A DNA stretch of 32,820 nucleotides from Acidobacteriota bacterium (GTDB lineage: Bacteria > Acidobacteriota > JAAYUB01), in the NCBI GenBank assembly GCA_016935015.1, contig JAFGRT010000052.1, positions 1 to 32,820 on the forward strand. The letters are read 5' to 3'. A program made the translations under genes and the position numbers. Shown here in pieces: positions 424 to 32,592 of this stretch; the first letter of the stretch is position 1, and each line of letters starts with the position of its first letter. The notes beneath the pieces are model-generated. The model saw only the letters and a list, made by a program, of their open reading frames with translations. It ran no database searches and was not told the origin of the DNA.

Positions 424-1734
424 ATGACGAACCGGCTGCGCCAGCTGGCCGTCATCCTGAGCATGGCTCTGCTGGCCGCCCATTTTTCACGGAATGAGGC
501 GCCAGGTTTGGTGATGGTCGCCCTGGGCGCCATGATCTTGCTGCTCATCAAGCGCCCCTGGGCGCCGCGCCTGCTGGTCACCTTGCTCGTGTCCGGCAGC
601 GCCGAGTGGGTTGCCACTACCGTCCGGTTGGCCCAGGGACGGCTGGCCCTGGGGTTGCCCTGGGGACGGCTGGCCCTGATCCTGGGAGTGGTCGCCCTGT
701 TCACCGCCGGCTCGGCCTGGCTGCTCCGCCCGTTCCTGCAACGCCAACCTGTCCGCAAGGGCGACACTCCCTGGCTGCCCGTGGTCGTGTTCTGGCTGAT
801 CGCGACTTTGCTGGCCATCGTGCATCAGGTGGTCGATCCGCCCCTCCTGCTGCTGGAGCGCTTTCTTCCCGGATACGGCCCGTTGGAGATCTTCCTGCTG
901 GGGCTCTACGGGGCTTGGCTGGCGGAAAAACTGGTCACCGTCGGCCCGGATTTCGCCCGCTGGCGATCCCGTTTGTGGCGACTCTTCGGCCTGGTTTTTT
1001 TCAGCCAGCTGTTGCTCGGCCTGACCGGCGTCGAGGAATGCCTGATGACCGGTGAGCTGCACCTGCCCGTGCCGGCGGTCATTCTGGCTGGGCCGATTTT
1101 TCGCGGCGAGGGTTTTTTCATGGTCATCCTGTTCGTCGCCGCAATCCTGCTGGCCGGACCGGCCTGGTGCAGCTTCCTTTGCTACTTCGGTCCGGCCGAT
1201 GACCTGGCCAGCCGCCGACGACAGCGGCCGACCGCCGTTCCCGTCTGGCGAGACCGGCTGCAGGTGGCCATCCTGATTCTCACCCCCCTCCTGGCGCTGC
1301 TGTTCCGCTTGGCCGGCGTCCCATCCCTGGTGGCCGTGGCCACCGCCCTGGCGTTCGCCGCGGCCGGAATCGGCGTGATGATCCTCCGATCGCGGCGACA
1401 CGGCACCATGCTCCACTGCACCGCCTGGTGCCCCATGGGCTGGCTGGCCACCCGGCTGGGCAAGATCAATCCGTTCCGGCTGGACATCGCCCCTGCATGC
1501 CACCGCTGCGGGGCCTGCACCCCCGCCTGCCGCTACGGCGCCCTGGAAGCGACCCACCTGGCCGCCGGCCGGGTAGGCCCCGCCTGCACGCTCTGCGGTG
1601 ACTGCGTCGTCGCCTGCCGCGACGGTTATCTGCGTTACCGCTTTCCCGGCCTGACCGCTCTCACCGCCCACCGGGTGTTCATCGGTCTGATCGTCAGCGT
1701 GCATGCGCTTTTCCTGGGAGTTGCCCGAATATGA
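424..1734 (+). CDS. NapH/NosR-like membrane polyferredoxin (4Fe-4S binding protein)
   Basis: A 436-residue integral membrane protein. About nine hydrophobic segments span residues 5-320, followed by a cytoplasmic iron-sulfur region and a last membrane helix at about 413-433. Two cysteine pairs mark the NapH/NosR/RdxA family: WCSFLC (C249, C253) and CTAWCPMG (C332, C336). Two 4Fe-4S ferredoxin motifs follow: C359-x2-C-x2-C-x3-C369 and C388-x2-C-x2-C-x3-C398. Family members pass electrons between the quinone pool and soluble or periplasmic partners. The ribosome site GGGAGG precedes ATG 424, one base after the upstream stop. Because hcp follows, a plausible but unproven role is electron supply to Hcp. 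The N-terminal membrane part is longer than in NapH itself, so it is not a true NapH orthologue. Confidence 0.85.
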   Translation: MTNRLRQLAVILSMALLAAHFSRNEAPGLVMVALGAMILLLIKRPWAPRLLVTLLVSGSAEWVATTVRLAQGRLALGLPWGRLALILGVVALFTAGSAWLLRPFLQRQPVRKGDTPWLPVVVFWLIATLLAIVHQVVDPPLLLLERFLPGYGPLEIFLLGLYGAWLAEKLVTVGPDFARWRSRLWRLFGLVFFSQLLLGLTGVEECLMTGELHLPVPAVILAGPIFRGEGFFMVILFVAAILLAGPAWCSFLCYFGPADDLASRRRQRPTAVPVWRDRLQVAILILTPLLALLFRLAGVPSLVAVATALAFAAAGIGVMILRSRRHGTMLHCTAWCPMGWLATRLGKINPFRLDIAPACHRCGACTPACRYGALEATHLAAGRVGPACTLCGDCVVACRDGYLRYRFPGLTALTAHRVFIGLIVSVHALFLGVARI

Positions 1735-1766
1735 CATTTTGGTGTAAAATAAAAAATATCATCCAC

Positions 1767-1780
1767 TTGACCTGGGTCAA
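1767..1780. promoter_or_regulatory. Crp/Fnr-family (HcpR-like) operator upstream of hcp
   Basis: A perfect 14-base palindrome, TTGACCTGGGTCAA, has the half-site geometry TTGAC-N4-GTCAA of the Fnr/HcpR branch of the Crp family. It lies 78 bases before the hcp start codon. A TATGAT -10 candidate at 1803-1808 would place transcription near 1815 and the palindrome centre near -41.5, the classical activator position. Hcp genes in sulfate reducers and other anaerobes are known HcpR targets; no regulator gene is in this window. Confidence 0.7.
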
Positions 1781-1802
1781 TTACGTCATCGCGCCAACGG
1801 AC

Positions 1803-1808
1803 TATGAT
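1803..1808 (+). promoter_or_regulatory. Candidate -10 element for hcp
   Basis: TATGAT (four of six matches to the consensus) lies downstream of the palindrome at 1767-1780, which covers the place where a -35 box would be. The absence of a recognisable -35 is what an activator-dependent class II promoter would show. Inferred leader is about 43 bases. Confidence 0.4.
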
Positions 1809-1857
1809 AGCGGGTGACCGGAGAAAAAGGCAGTCATACCATACGAGGAGGAGTATC

Positions 1858-3495
1858 ATGAGCATGTTTTGCTTTCAATGCCAGGAGACGGCCCGCAACC
1901 AGGGCTGCACCGTGCGCGGCGTCTGCGGCAAGGCAGACCAGACGTCCAACCTGATGGACGTCATGATTTTCGTGTTAAAAGGGATCGCCTACTATGCCGA
2001 AAGGGAAAAGGCCGAGCGGGGAGTGGATCCCGCCGTCGGCCGATTTATTTCCCAAGCCTTGTTCGCCACCATCACCAACGCCAATTTCGACAATGATCGT
2101 ATCATCGCCCTGATCCACGAGGCATTGCACCTGCGGAACCAGCTGGCGGCCCGCCAGGGGAAGCAATCGGGCGACGTGCCCGAGTGCGCCACCTGGTCCG
2201 CCGACGACCCGGCGGCCTTCCTGGAGAAGGCTCCCGAAGTAGGCGTCCTGTCCACGGAAAACGAAGACGTCCGCTCCCTGCGTGAGCTGATGATCTATGG
2301 CCTCAAAGGGATCTGCGCCTATGCCGATCACGCCGCGGTGCTCGGTCATGAGGACGGGGCCATCTACTCCTTTCTGACGGAGGCCCTGGCCGCCACCACC
2401 CGGGATCTGCCGGTGAATGAACTGGTTGCCCTGGTGCTGAAGACGGGCGAGACGGCCGTCACCACCATGGCCCTGCTGGACAAGGCCAACACGTCGGCCT
2501 ACGGCCATCCGGAGATGACCCGGGTGAATATCGGCGTTCGCCAGCGGCCCGGCATCCTCATATCCGGTCACGATCTGAAAGATATGGAAGAGCTTCTCGA
2601 ACAGACCAAGGACACCGGCGTGGACGTGTACACCCACAGCGAAATGCTACCGGCCAACTACTACCCGGCGTTCAAGAAATACGACCACTTCGTGGGCAAT
2701 TACGGCAGTTCCTGGTGGAACCAGAACAAGGAGTTCGCCTCCTTCAACGGCCCCATTCTCATGACCACCAACTGTATTACCCCCGTGCGCGACGAGTACA
2801 AGGACCGGATTTTCACCACCGGCATGGCCGGCTATCCCGGCGTGACGCACATTCCCGAACGCCCGGCCGGCGGAAAAAAGGATTTCTCGGCCATCATCGA
2901 ACTGGCCAAAACGTGTACCCCACCCCAGGAGCTGGAGACGGGCCACATCACCGGCGGCTTCGCCCATCACCAGGTCCTGGCCCTGGCCGACAAGGTGGTG
3001 GATGCCGTGAAATCCGGCGCCATCAAACGGTTCGTGGTCATGGCCGGCTGTGACGGCCGCATGAAGAGCCGCGAATACTTCACCCAGGTGGCGGAAGAAT
3101 TGCCGCCCGACACGGTGATCCTCACCGCCGGCTGCGCCAAGTACCGCTACAACAAACTCCAGCTGGGCGACATCGGCGGCATTCCGCGGGTGTTGGATGC
3201 CGGCCAATGCAACGACTCCTACTCCCTGGCCGTCATCGCGCTGAAACTGAAGGAAGTATTTGGCCTGGATGATGTAAACGAGCTGCCCATCTCGTTCGAC
3301 GTGGCCTGGTACGAGCAAAAGGCGGTGGCCGTGCTCTTGGCGCTGCTCTACCTGGGTTTCAAGGGCATCCGTCTCGGCCCGACCCTCCCCGCTTTCCTCT
3401 CTCCCGGCGTGGCCAAGGTGCTGGTGGAGAAATTCAACATTACGCCCACCGGTGAGGCCAAGGAAGATGTCGCCGCCATGATGGCCGGCCATTAG
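1858..3495 (+). CDS. hcp: Hydroxylamine reductase / hybrid cluster protein, class I
   Basis: A 545-residue cytoplasmic iron-sulfur protein that reduces hydroxylamine in vitro and is linked to nitric oxide and nitrosative-stress handling in vivo. The start at 1858 is chosen because GAGGAGGAG lies four bases upstream and the protein then begins MSMFCFQCQ, like the Desulfovibrio protein; the reading frame open from 1804 is only leader. N-terminal cysteines C5, C8, C17 and C23 (CX2CX8CX5C) bind the cubane cluster and define class I. All hybrid-cluster ligands are present: H238, E262, C306, C398, C426, C451, E486 and K488, each displaced 6 or 8 residues from the D. vulgaris numbering. The gene has its own Fnr-like operator and ends in a hairpin terminator, so it is probably transcribed alone, with a membrane polyferredoxin just upstream as possible electron donor. 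Confidence 0.97.
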
Positions 3496-26017: not shown

Positions 26018-26174
26018 GTTGTCGCGGTGCAGAAGGCAAGGGTAAACGCCGCCGGTATTGTCCGGTGCCGTTCTTTATTCATGGCCACCGAAACTGCCTT
26101 CGTCCGGTGTCGCGCTCCTCGCCGCAACTGGCTCCTCCGCCCGGCAACGCCGTAAAAAAGTCGGGCGGACGTTG

Positions 26175-26183
26175 TGCTACAAT
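26175..26183 (+). promoter_or_regulatory. Extended -10 for the C1A protease gene (possible leaderless mRNA)
   Basis: TGCTACAAT (26175-26183) is an extended -10. Its hexamer TACAAT ends seven bases before the ATG at 26190, so transcription would start at or within a base or two of the start codon. No -35 and no ribosome binding site are visible. Confidence 0.45.
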
Positions 26184-26189
26184 ACTGCC

Positions 26190-28253
26190 ATGAGCAGCGG
26201 CCGCCTTTCGACGTTCATAAACTGGATCCGCCGGCTTCCCCTTTGGCTCGGCCTGCTGGCCGTCCTGGGTCAACCGGCTCCGGCCGTCACCCCGGACCGG
26301 GCGTCCTGGTTGAACGCCCTGCAGGCCAGGATTTCCGCCGCCGGGTATTCATTCTCGGTGGGGTACAGCCCGGCCCTGGATATCCCCCGGAAACAATTGT
26401 GTGGCTGGCGGCCCGATGACGAGGCCTGGCAACGGCTGCCGCGGTTGGACCTGCCGCGGGCGGAGGAGTTGCCGGACCGTTTCGACTGGCGTGAGCTGGG
26501 CGGCCTGACGTCCGTGAAATGGCAACAATCGTGCGGCGCCTGTTACGCCTTCGCCAATCTGGGCGCGCTGGAAAGTCAAATCCTCATCCAGGAGGGCCAG
26601 CGGGTCGACCTGGCGGAGCAGCTGCCGGTGGATTGCAATCCCCATGCCCAGGGTTGTACCGGCGGTCCCATCAGTTTCTATTTTCTGATCTGGCACGGCG
26701 CCACCTTCGAACACTGGTACCCTTACCAGTCCCGCGAAACGGACTGCCTGGAAGGCGACATCTCCCTGCCGTACGATGTGTACACCAGTTATGCCGTGGC
26801 GAATGAGGTGCCGGCGATCAAACAGGCCATTTACGACTACGGACCGGTGATCTGCGGTGTGGCCGCCGATGATGCCTTCTGGGCCTACCGGGAGGGAATC
26901 TATGAGGGTCCGGGGGCCCCCCAACGCAATCACGTGGTGATTCTGGCCGGCTGGGATGACAATGACGGCCAGGGCTACTGGATCCTAAAGAACAGCTGGG
27001 GCCATTGGTGGGGGGAAGAGGGCTACATGCGCATCCGCTATGGTGCCGCCAAGATCGGCACCAATTGCACCTGCCCCGACTATCGTCCCCGTCCGGGGCC
27101 CAAACTCTGTCAGACGGTGGCCGACAGCTGGCTGACTGGTTACGATGAGCAGGACGCAAGCCGGACAGCGGCCCTGCGGCTGGTCATGAAGAACTTCGGT
27201 ACCACCGCCCGGCAGGTGCGAGTCACCTTGCGCACGGCGGATCCGGGGGTGATCCTGCTGGCGGATGAAGTCGCGTATCCGGATTTGAAGCAGGGCGAAG
27301 AGGGCATGGGCGACGGCCTGTTTCACTTTGCCCTGGCTGCGGGCCTGCCCGATGAACCGGTCATCGATTTTCGCCTGGATATTCGTACAGAATTCGGTCA
27401 TCAGATGACGGGGCGGGCGGTGGTCACGGTGGTTAAGCCGCCGGTGCTGATCCTCGACCTGGATCCCGACCATGACAGCGCGCCGGCCATCCAGACCGAA
27501 CTCACGGCGAACCAGGTGGCCTGGGCCTATACCCGCCATCCGGAGCTGACCACTTTCGACGATTACGACACGCTGTTCGTCTGCACGGGCGACGGCGCAA
27601 CATGCCCCCTCACCCCGGCCCATCATGAAGGGCTCAACCGGGCGCTGCGGCTGCACACCCACGTCTACCTGGAAGGTCGGGCCGTCTGGCATCTGGACGC
27701 CGGCCAATACCCCGACCTGGCCTGGTTCCATGTCACGCCCGGCGCCACAGCTGCACCGCCCCCAGCGGAACTGCGAGGCTGCCCGGCCACCTATTGGCGG
27801 GATGTCCGCATCGGCTTGCAGACCGGTCAGGTCGACGTGACGGAACTGCGATCCGATGCCAGTGCCGTCACCATTCTGCGCGGCTTTCAACCGGATATCG
27901 CTTGTTCGGCCGCCTGCCGGAACCATCCCCTGGCCGGCATCAACTGGTATACCCGCAACGTCAGCTCAACCATCGAGTTCGGTGATCTGCAGGCCACAGC
28001 CGTCGGATCCGCTCCTTACGATGTCATGCGCAGGATTCTGAAATTTTTCCGGTTGGTCGATATCCTTAGCGGCGATCTGGACGACGACGGCGAGCTGACC
28101 AGCACCGATCTGATCCTGCTGGCCCATTATCTCACGGAAAACGTGGAGCTATCCCCCATCGTCGAGGCTGATCTGAATTTGAGCGGCCGGGTGGATTGTC
28201 CGGATCTGACGTGGCTGGCCGTCCTGTTGGTGGAGGGCGACCATTCCTCCTAA
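26190..28253 (+). CDS. Secreted papain-like (C1A) protease with C-terminal dockerin-like repeats
   Basis: A 687-residue exported protein. Residues 1-32 form a signal peptide, a propeptide-like region follows, and the papain domain covers about 95-300. Catalytic residues are all present: Q112, C118 in SCGACYAF, H248 in NHVVILAGWDD and N268 in LKNSWGHWWGEEGY. The segment 305-620 is a beta-rich region with a Rossmann-like stretch (LILDLDPDHDSAPAIQTEL), of unknown role. Residues 627-687 hold two dockerin-like calcium loops, GDLDDDGELTSTDL and ADLNLSGRVDCPDL, each followed by a helix. Tail dockerins occur outside cellulosomes in several phyla and may anchor secreted enzymes. The ATG at 26190 has no ribosome site and follows an extended -10. 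Confidence 0.88.
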   Translation: MSSGRLSTFINWIRRLPLWLGLLAVLGQPAPAVTPDRASWLNALQARISAAGYSFSVGYSPALDIPRKQLCGWRPDDEAWQRLPRLDLPRAEELPDRFDWRELGGLTSVKWQQSCGACYAFANLGALESQILIQEGQRVDLAEQLPVDCNPHAQGCTGGPISFYFLIWHGATFEHWYPYQSRETDCLEGDISLPYDVYTSYAVANEVPAIKQAIYDYGPVICGVAADDAFWAYREGIYEGPGAPQRNHVVILAGWDDNDGQGYWILKNSWGHWWGEEGYMRIRYGAAKIGTNCTCPDYRPRPGPKLCQTVADSWLTGYDEQDASRTAALRLVMKNFGTTARQVRVTLRTADPGVILLADEVAYPDLKQGEEGMGDGLFHFALAAGLPDEPVIDFRLDIRTEFGHQMTGRAVVTVVKPPVLILDLDPDHDSAPAIQTELTANQVAWAYTRHPELTTFDDYDTLFVCTGDGATCPLTPAHHEGLNRALRLHTHVYLEGRAVWHLDAGQYPDLAWFHVTPGATAAPPPAELRGCPATYWRDVRIGLQTGQVDVTELRSDASAVTILRGFQPDIACSAACRNHPLAGINWYTRNVSSTIEFGDLQATAVGSAPYDVMRRILKFFRLVDILSGDLDDDGELTSTDLILLAHYLTENVELSPIVEADLNLSGRVDCPDLTWLAVLLVEGDHSS

Positions 28254-28361: not shown

Positions 28362-31300
28362 TCAGCGCTGGGGCCGGCCCCGGCCGGGACCGATATGAAA
28401 CCGGCCACCGATCAGCGCCGGGTCATCCTCATAACCCAGGGCCCGGAAATCCATACGCTGTTTGACGTCAGGATAGAGCGCGCCGGCATGCTCGGGCAGT
28501 GCCTGGCCGCGCATATCCGTGTGGCAGCGACCGCAACTGATGGCCTCCACCTTGTGACAATCGACGCACCCCAGGGACTGGCGGGTCGGGGCTACCTCAT
28601 GATGGATGGAGACATACATTTCGGTGCGCACGAAATCATACGAACCGGAGTATTCCAGTCCCACCGCCTGCATGCCTTCCGTCAGGGCCTTGTTCCAGTC
28701 ATAGTGCTCCCAAAATCCCTGCTGGAGTTTGGGAACGGCCAGGATCTTCCGCTCCGTGTCATAGGGCTGGTTAGCGGTATGAACCTTGAACGGGTAGATC
28801 CGGGCTGAAGGCTCGCGCCGGTCACCCAACGGCTGGTTCAGCACCACCGTCTCGTCGGTATCGATCTTGTCGCCCATGACATAGGCCTGGTTAGTGCCGT
28901 CATACCAAAGGTAGGTGGGCACCACATTCATGGCCCATTCCTGCCCCCCGATCTTCTTGTCGAAATCGGGTTGGCCGAGGGGCCCAATCTGCGGTTGCCG
29001 GTCCTGTCCCGCCAGTGAGAAATCGAGGTGCACCCGGGTCGGGGTGTTCTTGGCGAACGATGGAATATGGCAGGTTTCACAGGCCACCGAGCGGACATGA
29101 TCATCGAGGTGCCGGCTTACCGAACCCGCAATGCCATGGGGCGTGGCGCTGTGGCACTTGACGCACTGAACCCGTCCCTCGAAGGCCGGCGCCTTCAGGG
29201 ACATGCCGGCGATGCGATGTTCCCGGGTGGTATGGCAATCCTGGCAGCGAAGGTCATACATGCCCATATGGACGTCGAAATCGTCGGGCGCGTCGACCAG
29301 GATGGGTTCCAGGTCCCCGTGCTTAAAATTGGAACCGCCGCCGCTGTTGAAATGGCAGGCGCCGCATTCCCGGCGTGACGGCCGTCCCACCCGGGCGGCC
29401 ACTTCCGCCAGGTCCACCCCTTGGGCGGGCCAACCACCTTCCGCTTTCCGGTAAATTCCGGTGGTATCGTGGCAGACCAGGCAATCGATGCGCTGGGGAT
29501 CAGAGAAATCGAATCCGGCTTCGTCCATGCCGTAACCGATATGGCAGATGGCGCACAGCTCGTCGTTGGCGGCCATCCCCAGAGTACAGTTGTTGATCAG
29601 GGTTTTCTCACCCAGATCCACCTGGTGCTCATGCCCCTCGATGAAGGCCGCGTGCCCGGCCCAGTTCCAGTGAGACGTCTTGAGGATATCCTGGCCGACA
29701 TGGCCATGACAGGTCAGGCACTGGGTCGTCACCTCGGTGGGACTCGGATCGGGGCCGAGTTCCACCAGCTGGCGGTGATCGGGAGTCAACGGATGATGGC
29801 AGCCGGCACAATCTACCGGCGCATAGACCGCCTGCGTCTGGTCTTCGTGACAGCCGATGCACTGCCGGTGGTAGGCACCTTTAAGGCCCAACCGATCAGG
29901 ATCGTCCTCCTCATTGGCGAAAAGATGACAGGCCGAGCATTTCTGGATGGTAATCGCATTCATGTCATGGCAGCTGCCGCAGGCGATACCGCCGATCCGC
30001 TCTTCCAGGTTTTCCGCATGAAACGCCTCGATATCCATCCCGACCCGGTCCTCTTCGTCGTAGGAAAACCGGTGGTGGCAGACACCGCAGTTGCCATTTG
30101 TAACCACATCGTGGGTCCGGTGGGTAAATTTCACCGGTTCGTAAAAATCTGTCCGCTCATTCAGGAGGGGGTAGTTCAGGACGTAGAGGTTGCGATAGGA
30201 TTCCGGCCGGTTGGCATGGCTGGAAGCGGACAGGACTTCCTGCTCGATCTTCACCGGCTGAACACTCTGCACCCATTCGTGGGCCTCGATGTCGCCGGCG
30301 ACGGCCTCCTGATGCACCACCGCATAAATCACAACGAAGGAGAACAGCAGCAGCGCAGCCCCGCCGCGCAGCACCCAGGCGGTGGTCGACGTGAGGGGTT
30401 GGGCCGAAATCTGCCGGGCTTCCTCCTCGTAGCGCTCCCGGCACTTGCCGCAGCGGCATCGCTCGAATACAGGGAAAAAGGTCGCTGCCAGCCGGTAGAG
30501 CAACATGATGGTGCAGATCATGGCAGTGGTCAGGGCGATCTCACCCAGCGACGGGAAATAGAACTTATTGGAATAGGGCGGCATGTAGCCGACCAGATAC
30601 ACGTTGACCCGGTTCAGTACCACACCGAGAATGATCAGCAGCACCGAGAACATGAGCCACCCTGACGATCGCCGGACGGCCTTCTGGGTGAGTAGAATGA
30701 AAGGCAGAATAATCCCGATGAAGACCTCGATGATAAAAGCCGTGGTACAGCGCGCACAGTCCGTCATGCTGATAGAATCAAGACGGTAGAAAAAATCGCC
30801 GAATTTCAATAATGCATAGATGCCGATAAACCATGGGATATAACCGGCCAACGGGGTCAGAATCTCCATTTCCAGCTCCCGCCGGAAACTCCGGTTGGCG
30901 ATGATGGATTCCAGAATCACCATGGGGAACCCTACCATGATGGCGGACAGGAGAAAGAGCATGGGCAACCAGGGGGTGTACCAAAGAGCATGAATTTTCG
31001 TCGGAGCAATGAGGATAATGGTCCCCAGCGAAGACTGGTGCATAAAAGAGAGCACCACACCGGCGATAATGAAGATGGGAAGCACCGTCTTCACCACCCG
31101 GTGCAGGGTGATGATCGGCTTCTCGAACCTTTTCAGCATGCGGGCGCCCCATTCGTTGCGCTGGATCCGTTCACGTAATCCTTCCAGCAGGGCCGGCGAC
31201 ATCTCGATGGTCAGCACCGTCAGGTAGAACATGACACACATGGCTACCTCGAACAGGCCCGAATTTCCCTGCCAATGAAAAAGGGGCCGCCAGATGTTCC

Positions 31301-31643
31301 ATGATTTGCCGATATCAAAAAGCAAGCCGATGGCCACCATCAAGTAGCCCAACCAGGCAGTGAGGATGGCCGGCCGCAACAGGCCGTGGTATTTCTTTTT
31401 TCCAAAAATATCGATCAGCGCCGCCGTGGTGAAGCCGCCGGCGGCCAGGGCCACACCACAGGCGACATCGATGGCGATCCAGATCCCCCAGGGGTAGTAA
31501 TTGTCCAGGTTGGTCACCGTCCCCAAACCCAGCAGGAAGCGGGCCAGCCCGAAGGAGAATCCGACAACCATGAAGGCGAGGAGGACGAACGTCCCCGGCG
31601 TGAAAAACGGTCGGTCAATGCGCTCAATCGCGGGATGGTCCAT
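28362..31643 (-). CDS. NrfD-type membrane domain fused to a 14-haem cytochrome (OTR-like)
   Basis: A 1093-residue fusion. Residues 1-390 form an NrfD/HmcC-type quinone-interacting domain with about ten helices. A loop with CRCGKC (396-401) leads to an eleventh helix (423-445) that places the rest in the periplasm. Five CxxCH haem sites at 519-616 resemble a cytochrome c3/Hmc-type wire. Nine more at 642-1041 lie in a region resembling octahaem tetrathionate reductase (OTR): LKTSHWNW, CAICHIGYG, CLVCHDTTG, CGACHFNSGGG, HMGMYDLRCQDCH, CETCHIPSFAK and the tail ALGYEDDPALIGGRF. The start at 31643 has AAGGAGG five bases upstream and overlaps the partner gene by 20 bases. Likely a quinol-linked reductase; tetrathionate, nitrite and hydroxylamine are candidate substrates. 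Confidence 0.9.
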   Translation of the reverse strand: MDHPAIERIDRPFFTPGTFVLLAFMVVGFSFGLARFLLGLGTVTNLDNYYPWGIWIAIDVACGVALAAGGFTTAALIDIFGKKKYHGLLRPAILTAWLGYLMVAIGLLFDIGKSWNIWRPLFHWQGNSGLFEVAMCVMFYLTVLTIEMSPALLEGLRERIQRNEWGARMLKRFEKPIITLHRVVKTVLPIFIIAGVVLSFMHQSSLGTIILIAPTKIHALWYTPWLPMLFLLSAIMVGFPMVILESIIANRSFRRELEMEILTPLAGYIPWFIGIYALLKFGDFFYRLDSISMTDCARCTTAFIIEVFIGIILPFILLTQKAVRRSSGWLMFSVLLIILGVVLNRVNVYLVGYMPPYSNKFYFPSLGEIALTTAMICTIMLLYRLAATFFPVFERCRCGKCRERYEEEARQISAQPLTSTTAWVLRGGAALLLFSFVVIYAVVHQEAVAGDIEAHEWVQSVQPVKIEQEVLSASSHANRPESYRNLYVLNYPLLNERTDFYEPVKFTHRTHDVVTNGNCGVCHHRFSYDEEDRVGMDIEAFHAENLEERIGGIACGSCHDMNAITIQKCSACHLFANEEDDPDRLGLKGAYHRQCIGCHEDQTQAVYAPVDCAGCHHPLTPDHRQLVELGPDPSPTEVTTQCLTCHGHVGQDILKTSHWNWAGHAAFIEGHEHQVDLGEKTLINNCTLGMAANDELCAICHIGYGMDEAGFDFSDPQRIDCLVCHDTTGIYRKAEGGWPAQGVDLAEVAARVGRPSRRECGACHFNSGGGSNFKHGDLEPILVDAPDDFDVHMGMYDLRCQDCHTTREHRIAGMSLKAPAFEGRVQCVKCHSATPHGIAGSVSRHLDDHVRSVACETCHIPSFAKNTPTRVHLDFSLAGQDRQPQIGPLGQPDFDKKIGGQEWAMNVVPTYLWYDGTNQAYVMGDKIDTDETVVLNQPLGDRREPSARIYPFKVHTANQPYDTERKILAVPKLQQGFWEHYDWNKALTEGMQAVGLEYSGSYDFVRTEMYVSIHHEVAPTRQSLGCVDCHKVEAISCGRCHTDMRGQALPEHAGALYPDVKQRMDFRALGYEDDPALIGGRFHIGPGRGRPQR

Positions 31644-32592
31644 GACTGCCTCCTTCATCCTCGTGGTGTGCGGCTTCGGTGCCTGCCTCTTTATTCAACC
31701 GTTCTTTCCGGTGATTGAACCACATGAGGGCACCCAGCGCCCCGTAAAAACCAAACGGGATAGCACCGTACCGGAAGATGGTATGCTGGATGTTTTCTGT
31801 CAGGCGAGGGCCGGAAGTTTCCGGCAATTTCAGCATCCCGACCTCCGTCACCGGCCGGCCGGTAAGGTAAAGCCAGCCTGTACCCCCGATTTCATGTTCG
31901 CCGTAAATATGGTCAAGGTAACGCTCCGGCCGCTGGCGGATCCGCGCATGGGCCATCTCCAGTAGCTCCTCCCGCTTGCCGAACACGATGGCTTCCGTGG
32001 GGCACGCGGCGGCACAGGCCGGATTGGCGCCCGTCCCCCGGGCCAGATCGGTGCAGTATTCGCACTTGCGCACCCGGGGTGTCAGGGGGTCGTCGTATTC
32101 ATAGTCCGGGACTTGGAAAGGGCAGGCGTACAGGCAGTAGCGGCAACCGATACAGACAGTGGGGTTGTAAACCACGGCCCCATCGCGGGACTTGGTCAGC
32201 GCGCCGGTGATGCAGCCGGACACGCAGGCGGGATCCAGGCAATGCATGCACTGGAATTTGACATAGGTGTTCTTTTTTTGCAATTGATCGGGAGACGGCG
32301 GTCCGGGAAACTCGTTGACCACTGTGAACGACGCTTCCGTGTGGCGGCGCTCGTTGCGGAACACCGTTTTGGTAGTGAATGATTCCGTGGGACGCGGCAG
32401 CTGGTTCCGGTCATTGCAGGCTTTTTCGCACTGGCGACAGCCGATGCACAACGTCGTGTCCACCAGGCAGCCGACATGCTCCAGCGCCGTTTCCGATTCG
32501 TTCCCCGTGGACGCCCGGCTAAGCGAGCCGGCGGCCAGCGAGGAGGACGTCACCATGGCGAACTTCAAAAATTTTCGCCGGTCAAGACTCAT
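31624..32592 (-). CDS. Tat-exported 16-cysteine 4Fe-4S protein (HybA/DsrO/HmcB-like)
   Basis: A 322-residue iron-sulfur subunit. It begins with a twin-arginine signal (MSLDRRKFLKF, then a hydrophobic stretch to about 25). Sixteen cysteines in four groups can bind four 4Fe-4S clusters: CIGCRQCEKAC, CMHCLDPACVSGC, CIGCRYCLYAC and CEYC ... CAAAC. A hydrophobic helix near 270-290 probably anchors it in the membrane as in HybA. It would sit in the periplasm, next to the NrfD domain of its partner, and pass electrons between quinone and the haem chain. The ATG at 32592 has AGGAGG five bases upstream. It is first in the operon and its 3' end overlaps the fusion gene by 20 bases, so the two are co-translated. 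Confidence 0.93.
   Translation of the reverse strand: MSLDRRKFLKFAMVTSSSLAAGSLSRASTGNESETALEHVGCLVDTTLCIGCRQCEKACNDRNQLPRPTESFTTKTVFRNERRHTEASFTVVNEFPGPPSPDQLQKKNTYVKFQCMHCLDPACVSGCITGALTKSRDGAVVYNPTVCIGCRYCLYACPFQVPDYEYDDPLTPRVRKCEYCTDLARGTGANPACAAACPTEAIVFGKREELLEMAHARIRQRPERYLDHIYGEHEIGGTGWLYLTGRPVTEVGMLKLPETSGPRLTENIQHTIFRYGAIPFGFYGALGALMWFNHRKERLNKEAGTEAAHHEDEGGSHGPSRD

Follow-up and report, generated by a model that had tools for sequence, protein, structure and literature searches.

To our knowledge, the physiological electron donor and in vivo substrate of octahaem tetrathionate reductases (OTRs) are unsettled. A lysine is known to ligate one of the CXXCH-bound haems in OTR (PMC12285233), titles cited in one paper credit the Shewanella enzyme with reduction of tetrathionate, nitrite and hydroxylamine (PMC8840924), and otr of marine Acidobacteriota is induced by tetrathionate (PMC8528874). 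In open-licence PMC papers we found no published description of an NrfD-OTR fusion.

Such a fusion is encoded in the window, the whole 32,820-nucleotide stretch of acidobacterial DNA analysed here. A first-pass annotation had proposed one unbroken 1093-residue frame with about ten membrane helices, a further helix and 14 CxxCH motifs, and the frame, hydropathy and motif count all confirm it: the minus-strand frame 28362..31643 (stop included) is free of stops over 1093 residues, and its 14 motifs compare with a mean of 0.05 and a maximum of 2 among 2000 shuffles of the same composition. The features of the locus are as follows.

28362..31643, minus strand: fused gene, 1093 aa, comprising NrfD domain, membrane helix 11, five-haem relay, octahaem domain and 14th haem (open frame, profiles, full-length relatives)
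31649..31655, minus strand: ribosome-binding site AAGGAGG of the fused gene, preceding the ATG at 31643 (sequence)
30450..31643, minus strand: NrfD/HmcC/HybB-like quinone domain, residues 1-398, ten helices (PF03916; residue mapping to HybB)
30264..30449, minus strand: linker carrying a positively charged loop on the cytoplasmic side and membrane helix 11, 425-443 (positive-inside count)
29769..30158, minus strand: five-haem class-III-cytochrome-like relay, residues 496-625, CxxCH at 519, 555, 569, 595 and 612 (PF02085, PF14522; HmcA 1GWS/1H29, NhcA 19HC)
28536..29768, minus strand: octahaem OTR-family domain, residues 626-1036, CxxCH at 642, 697, 721, 760, 800, 827, 855 and 1026 (TIGR04315, PF11783, 1SP3)
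29541..29555, minus strand: CxxCH 697-701, motif of the haem taken to be catalytic, corresponding to OTR haem 2 (aligns with C74-H78 of 1SP3)
29322..29324, minus strand: K774, equivalent of the haem ligand Lys153 of Shewanella OTR (invariant by alignment in 11 fused and all standalone proteins)
28362..28535, minus strand: C-terminal tail with haem motif 14, 1037-1041, which fused-clade members retain (absent from the aligned part of 1SP3)
31624..32592, minus strand: HybA/HmcB-like Fe-S subunit, 322 aa, with Tat-like signal, 16 invariant Cys (four 4Fe-4S) and C-terminal helix (NF045715, NF008134, alignment)

In profile searches, each module found its match: NrfD PF03916, HybB and HmcC at 15-400, class III/C7 cytochrome, HmcA and NhcA at 503-627, TIGR04315 at 627-1038 and PF11783 at 878-1036, all in a 1098-residue numbering that runs 5 residues above the 1093-residue numbering used elsewhere, which has the later start. 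The proposed five-haem wire and OTR-like domain need a small correction: the haems group as 5 + 8 + 1, with the final motif falling outside the octahaem domain. The relay finds its matches in class III cytochromes, the C-terminal portion of HmcA and the nine-haem cytochrome, and these profile and PDB matches exclude it as an NrfB homologue; profile searches of the fused protein returned neither an NrfB-like nor an NrfA match. An AlphaFold model built on an alignment only two relatives deep had a mean pLDDT of 36.9.

The membrane domain scored 69.6 bits against PF03916 (gathering score 25.8) and fell below the equivalog cut-offs of both HmcC (282.4 bits; cut-off 550) and HybB (307.9 bits; cut-off 450). 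Residues D59, D110, S128, E132 and Y140 are kept in every NrfD sequence of the alignment; in E. coli HybB, one of these sequences, D59 is D58. By motif position, D59, D110, S128 and Y140 are the equivalents of QrcD D70, D120, S138 and Y150; in QrcABCD, several of these QrcD residues have an essential or proposed role in quinone chemistry or proton transfer (PMC13059093). Hydropathy averaged over relatives places ten helices within the first 390 residues and an 11th at 425-443. Lysine and arginine number 24 in loops after even helices versus 6 after odd ones, and by the positive-inside rule this alternation puts the N-terminus in the cytoplasm, together with the loop that leads into helix 11, and places the chain beyond helix 11, including every haem motif, in the periplasm. 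Helix 11 thus allows a ten-helix NrfD protein to carry a periplasmic C-terminal domain. A cysteine-rich CRCGKC loop at about 396-402 was considered as a metal site and rejected, as the window protein alone possesses it.

Directly upstream, and overlapping the fused gene by 20 bases, lies the Fe-S gene. Its product barely passes the HybA profile (NF008134, 263.1 bits; cut-off 263) and falls below that of HmcB (NF045715, 316.9 bits; cut-off 420), and its 16 cysteines are conserved in 13 of 13 sequences compared. Relatives of the fused gene have the Fe-S gene in the same place wherever the contig permits a check, mostly with a 4-base overlap. Fused operons share no other neighbour, and no hydrogenase gene was seen beside them. 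NrfD-like subunits carry no redox cofactor (PMC8076601), so the four-cluster Fe-S subunit would be expected to link quinol with the haems, and the earlier idea of direct quinol-to-substrate flow within one polypeptide finds no support in the form proposed. The genome encodes cytochrome c assembly and futalosine-menaquinone genes. Elsewhere in the window, 26058-28253 encodes a papain-family protease that carries a dockerin type I domain. The stretch 424-3495, 25 kb from the fused gene, encodes a membrane 4Fe-4S NapH-like protein (424-1734) and, next to it, a hybrid-cluster protein (prismane, 1804-3495).

From these components we infer a direction, a route and a catalytic end point for electron flow. 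The two overlapping genes are rather likely to encode a two-subunit, membrane-bound, menaquinol-oxidising complex that acts as a periplasmic reductase of a small acceptor. As the conserved D59, D110, S128, E132 and Y140 suggest, the NrfD domain would oxidise menaquinol on its periplasmic face. The HybA/HmcB-like subunit would take up the electrons in its four Fe4S4 clusters. Next would come the five bis-His haems, which helix 11 anchors to the membrane domain, and from this relay the electrons would run into the octahaem domain as far as the Lys774-ligated haem, where the small periplasmic acceptor would be reduced. The fused protein and its Fe-S partner are probably a self-contained respiratory enzyme.

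By profile, the octahaem domain is of the OTR family. It scored about 460 bits (459.9 and 462) against TIGR04315, above the curated cut-off of 375, so the C-terminal part does have the octahaem-family match that the first-pass annotation had made its test; other complete fused members scored 402-482 bits, except one (G155) at 317, below the cut-off. Shewanella OTR (PDB 1SP3) was matched at E=5e-109 with eight CxxCH in register. Thirteen non-motif histidines are invariant, enough for 13 bis-His haems, as is K774, and all 14 haem motifs are kept across relatives, save one motif in one relative. In the fused copy of genome G062 (L037:9236-12505), both cysteines of the presumed catalytic haem motif are lost (EFSNIH), with the His and Lys kept. 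The divergent neighbour of that operon (L037:6111-8066) encodes a 651-aa protein with about 11 haem motifs and a b561-type membrane domain.

The pocket itself has changed. Cys64 and Asp150, which we take from work on 1SP3 to line the OTR pocket beside the active haem, are not strictly conserved in the fused clade. Cys64 is present in 22 of 22 standalone proteins aligned (Shewanella, Paracoccus and Photobacterium included) versus 6 of 11 fused; its equivalent in the window protein is T687, immediately preceded by a Cys. Of the 22 standalone proteins, 21 have Asp or Asn at position 150; the fused ones never do and instead have Ser, Thr, Ala, Pro or Leu (S771 in the window protein) next to an Asn that is invariant among them. 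Tetrathionate activity therefore cannot be assumed, and these replacements, together with the cysteines lost in G062, mean that some members may have lost catalysis. An OTR-like catalytic domain, as first annotated, is accordingly upheld by the profile and the Lys ligand and weakened at Cys64/Asp150.

Genomic context was also compared with that of standalone OTR genes of this phylum, which at four of the loci read (L064, L065, L067, L069) lie near genes for YeeE/YedE sulphur transporter-rhodanese fusions (PF04143 + PF00581), a lead to a sulphur substrate of the standalone proteins. One of these loci, L069, is in G062; alongside its fused copy, this genome thus carries a canonical standalone OTR next to a sulphur transporter. 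At the loci read, fused genes lack neighbours of this type, and for this reason and because of the altered pocket we do not assign tetrathionate as their substrate. The acceptor need not be tetrathionate by default; nitrite/hydroxylamine, tetrathionate and another sulphur oxyanion are all candidates. A further-reaching proposal, which we advance only tentatively, is that these proteins form an undescribed family of quinol-dependent complexes, with donor, relay and octahaem reductase in one chain, one Fe-S subunit, and a changed pocket and therefore a non-tetrathionate substrate. The genome of the window also encodes a standalone ten-haem OTR relative with a signal peptide (L002:1114-2919; G000:C199:4630-6435), which keeps the Lys153 and Cys64 equivalents and scores marginally for a dockerin type I domain (23.0 bits against a cut-off of 22.9).

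The same pocket changes and the missing catalytic-haem cysteines of G062 would also fit an octahaem domain that is no enzyme but an electron outlet, with the 14 haems conducting electrons from quinol to cytochromes of the periplasm or outer membrane. CbcL, a quinol-linked b/c fusion, serves extracellular reduction in this way (PMC9129911), and the additional C-terminal haem and the existence of related NrfD-three-haem and NrfD-six-haem fusions that have no catalytic domain point in the same direction. We nevertheless consider an outlet unlikely, since K774 and a CHF..GG..N.KHGDLEP block are retained in nearly all members, which is hard to explain without a special haem, and no outer-membrane conduit gene adjoins the operon.

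Less probable still is flow in reverse, in which the octahaem domain would oxidise a periplasmic donor (e.g. thiosulphate) or take electrons from cytochromes and the NrfD domain would reduce menaquinone, as proposed for Nhc/Qrc. A Lys-ligated haem is a reductase signature in the NrfA/OTR superfamily, which argues against such a role. Reverse flow is conceivable because Hmc/Nhc-type modules have been described as cytochrome:quinone oxidoreductases, Nhc and Qrc specifically as TpIc3:quinone oxidoreductases (PMC8076601), and the accessory modules here are all closest to HmcB/HmcC/HmcA-NhcA or HybA/HybB. However, the tetrathionate/thiosulphate couple, at +198 mV (PMC8528874), is too positive to reduce menaquinone.

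An assembly or annotation artefact joining two genes, for which only the draft state of the genome (237 contigs) could speak, is dismissed as vanishingly improbable, because nine genera hold ten uninterrupted copies and three more split by contig ends, with the same linker and helix 11 throughout. The union of an NrfD-type membrane domain, a multihaem relay and an OTR-family domain is thus genuine and kept across genera, as the first-pass annotation had supposed, and no relative has a stop or frameshift. The genome survey it had called for found the same architecture in 13 of 396 sampled genomes of the phylum, in 7 families; the ten uninterrupted copies are nearly full length with 50-57% identity. 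TIGR04315 was matched at E<=1e-30 in 61 genomes, 13 of which have the fused form. Long open frames around the standalone OTRs of G058, G003 and G267 proved to be upstream frame extensions and not fusions. A viral scan found no relatives, and a plasmid scan found OTR-only or NrfD-only matches and no fusion. A scan of genome contigs with the single protein recovered only one unfused relative; it used exact peptide patterns, so absence elsewhere weighs little.

Phylogenetically, the NrfD domains of fused proteins form one clade (100/99), whose sister is an unfused NrfD from a CSSED10-310 bacterium in an operon ordered Fe-S, NrfD, separate c3-like cytochrome. The fused octahaem domains likewise form one clade, apart from all standalone OTRs, among which the Shewanella enzyme falls; its support is 100/100 without the divergent own-genome paralogue L002 and weak when L002 is included. 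The window protein does not cluster with its counterparts from the same family (G016, G030, G056), a placement that suggests horizontal transfer of the gene. NrfD is also fused to three or six haems without an octahaem domain in other clades of the same phylum (L056, L057, L058, L062, L059, L060 and L061, several with an Fe-S gene upstream), and given these separate clades, NrfD was probably fused to haem domains on more than one occasion.

The natural fusion fixes both the donor (quinol via NrfD/Fe-S) and the stoichiometry, which makes quinol-to-acceptor turnover, proton coupling and long-range haem transfer testable in one two-subunit complex. For the assembly of such an enzyme, natural intermediates are available in the sister operon, whose genes are unfused, and in the NrfD-multihaem fusions lacking an OTR domain.

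Each known system resembles this locus in part. S. oneidensis OTR (1SP3; TIGR04315) shares the eight haem motifs in register, the Lys153 equivalent and a profile score above cut-off, but it is soluble and separate, whereas the window protein is fused behind 11 membrane helices, has a 14th haem, belongs to a separate clade and is without Cys64 and Asp150. CbcL of Geobacter sulfurreducens also joins a membrane quinol domain to a periplasmic multihaem domain in one chain (PMC9129911); in contrast, its membrane part is a six-helix dihaem cytochrome b, and it has nine haems and no catalytic domain. The Hmc/Nhc complexes of sulphate reducers are the best or nearly best matches for the Fe-S subunit (HmcB), NrfD domain (HmcC) and relay (HmcA/NhcA), although scores here stay below the Hmc equivalog cut-offs and the cytochrome is fused to the membrane subunit and an OTR domain. 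MccACD sulphite reductase likewise combines an octahaem enzyme with a four-cluster Fe-S subunit and NrfD-type MccD (PMC8076601), but as separate subunits and with no five-haem relay listed; profile and PDB searches of the fused protein reported no MccA match. NrfABCD has the same module logic of NrfD, four-cluster NrfC, five-haem NrfB and a multihaem Lys-ligated reductase, yet its proteins are separate, while here the relay is class III/HmcA-like and the end is an octahaem OTR-family domain rather than pentahaem NrfA. Overall, the predicted plan is that of the NrfABCD/MccACD kind, built from Hmc/Nhc-type parts, with relay and putative enzyme fused to the membrane subunit.
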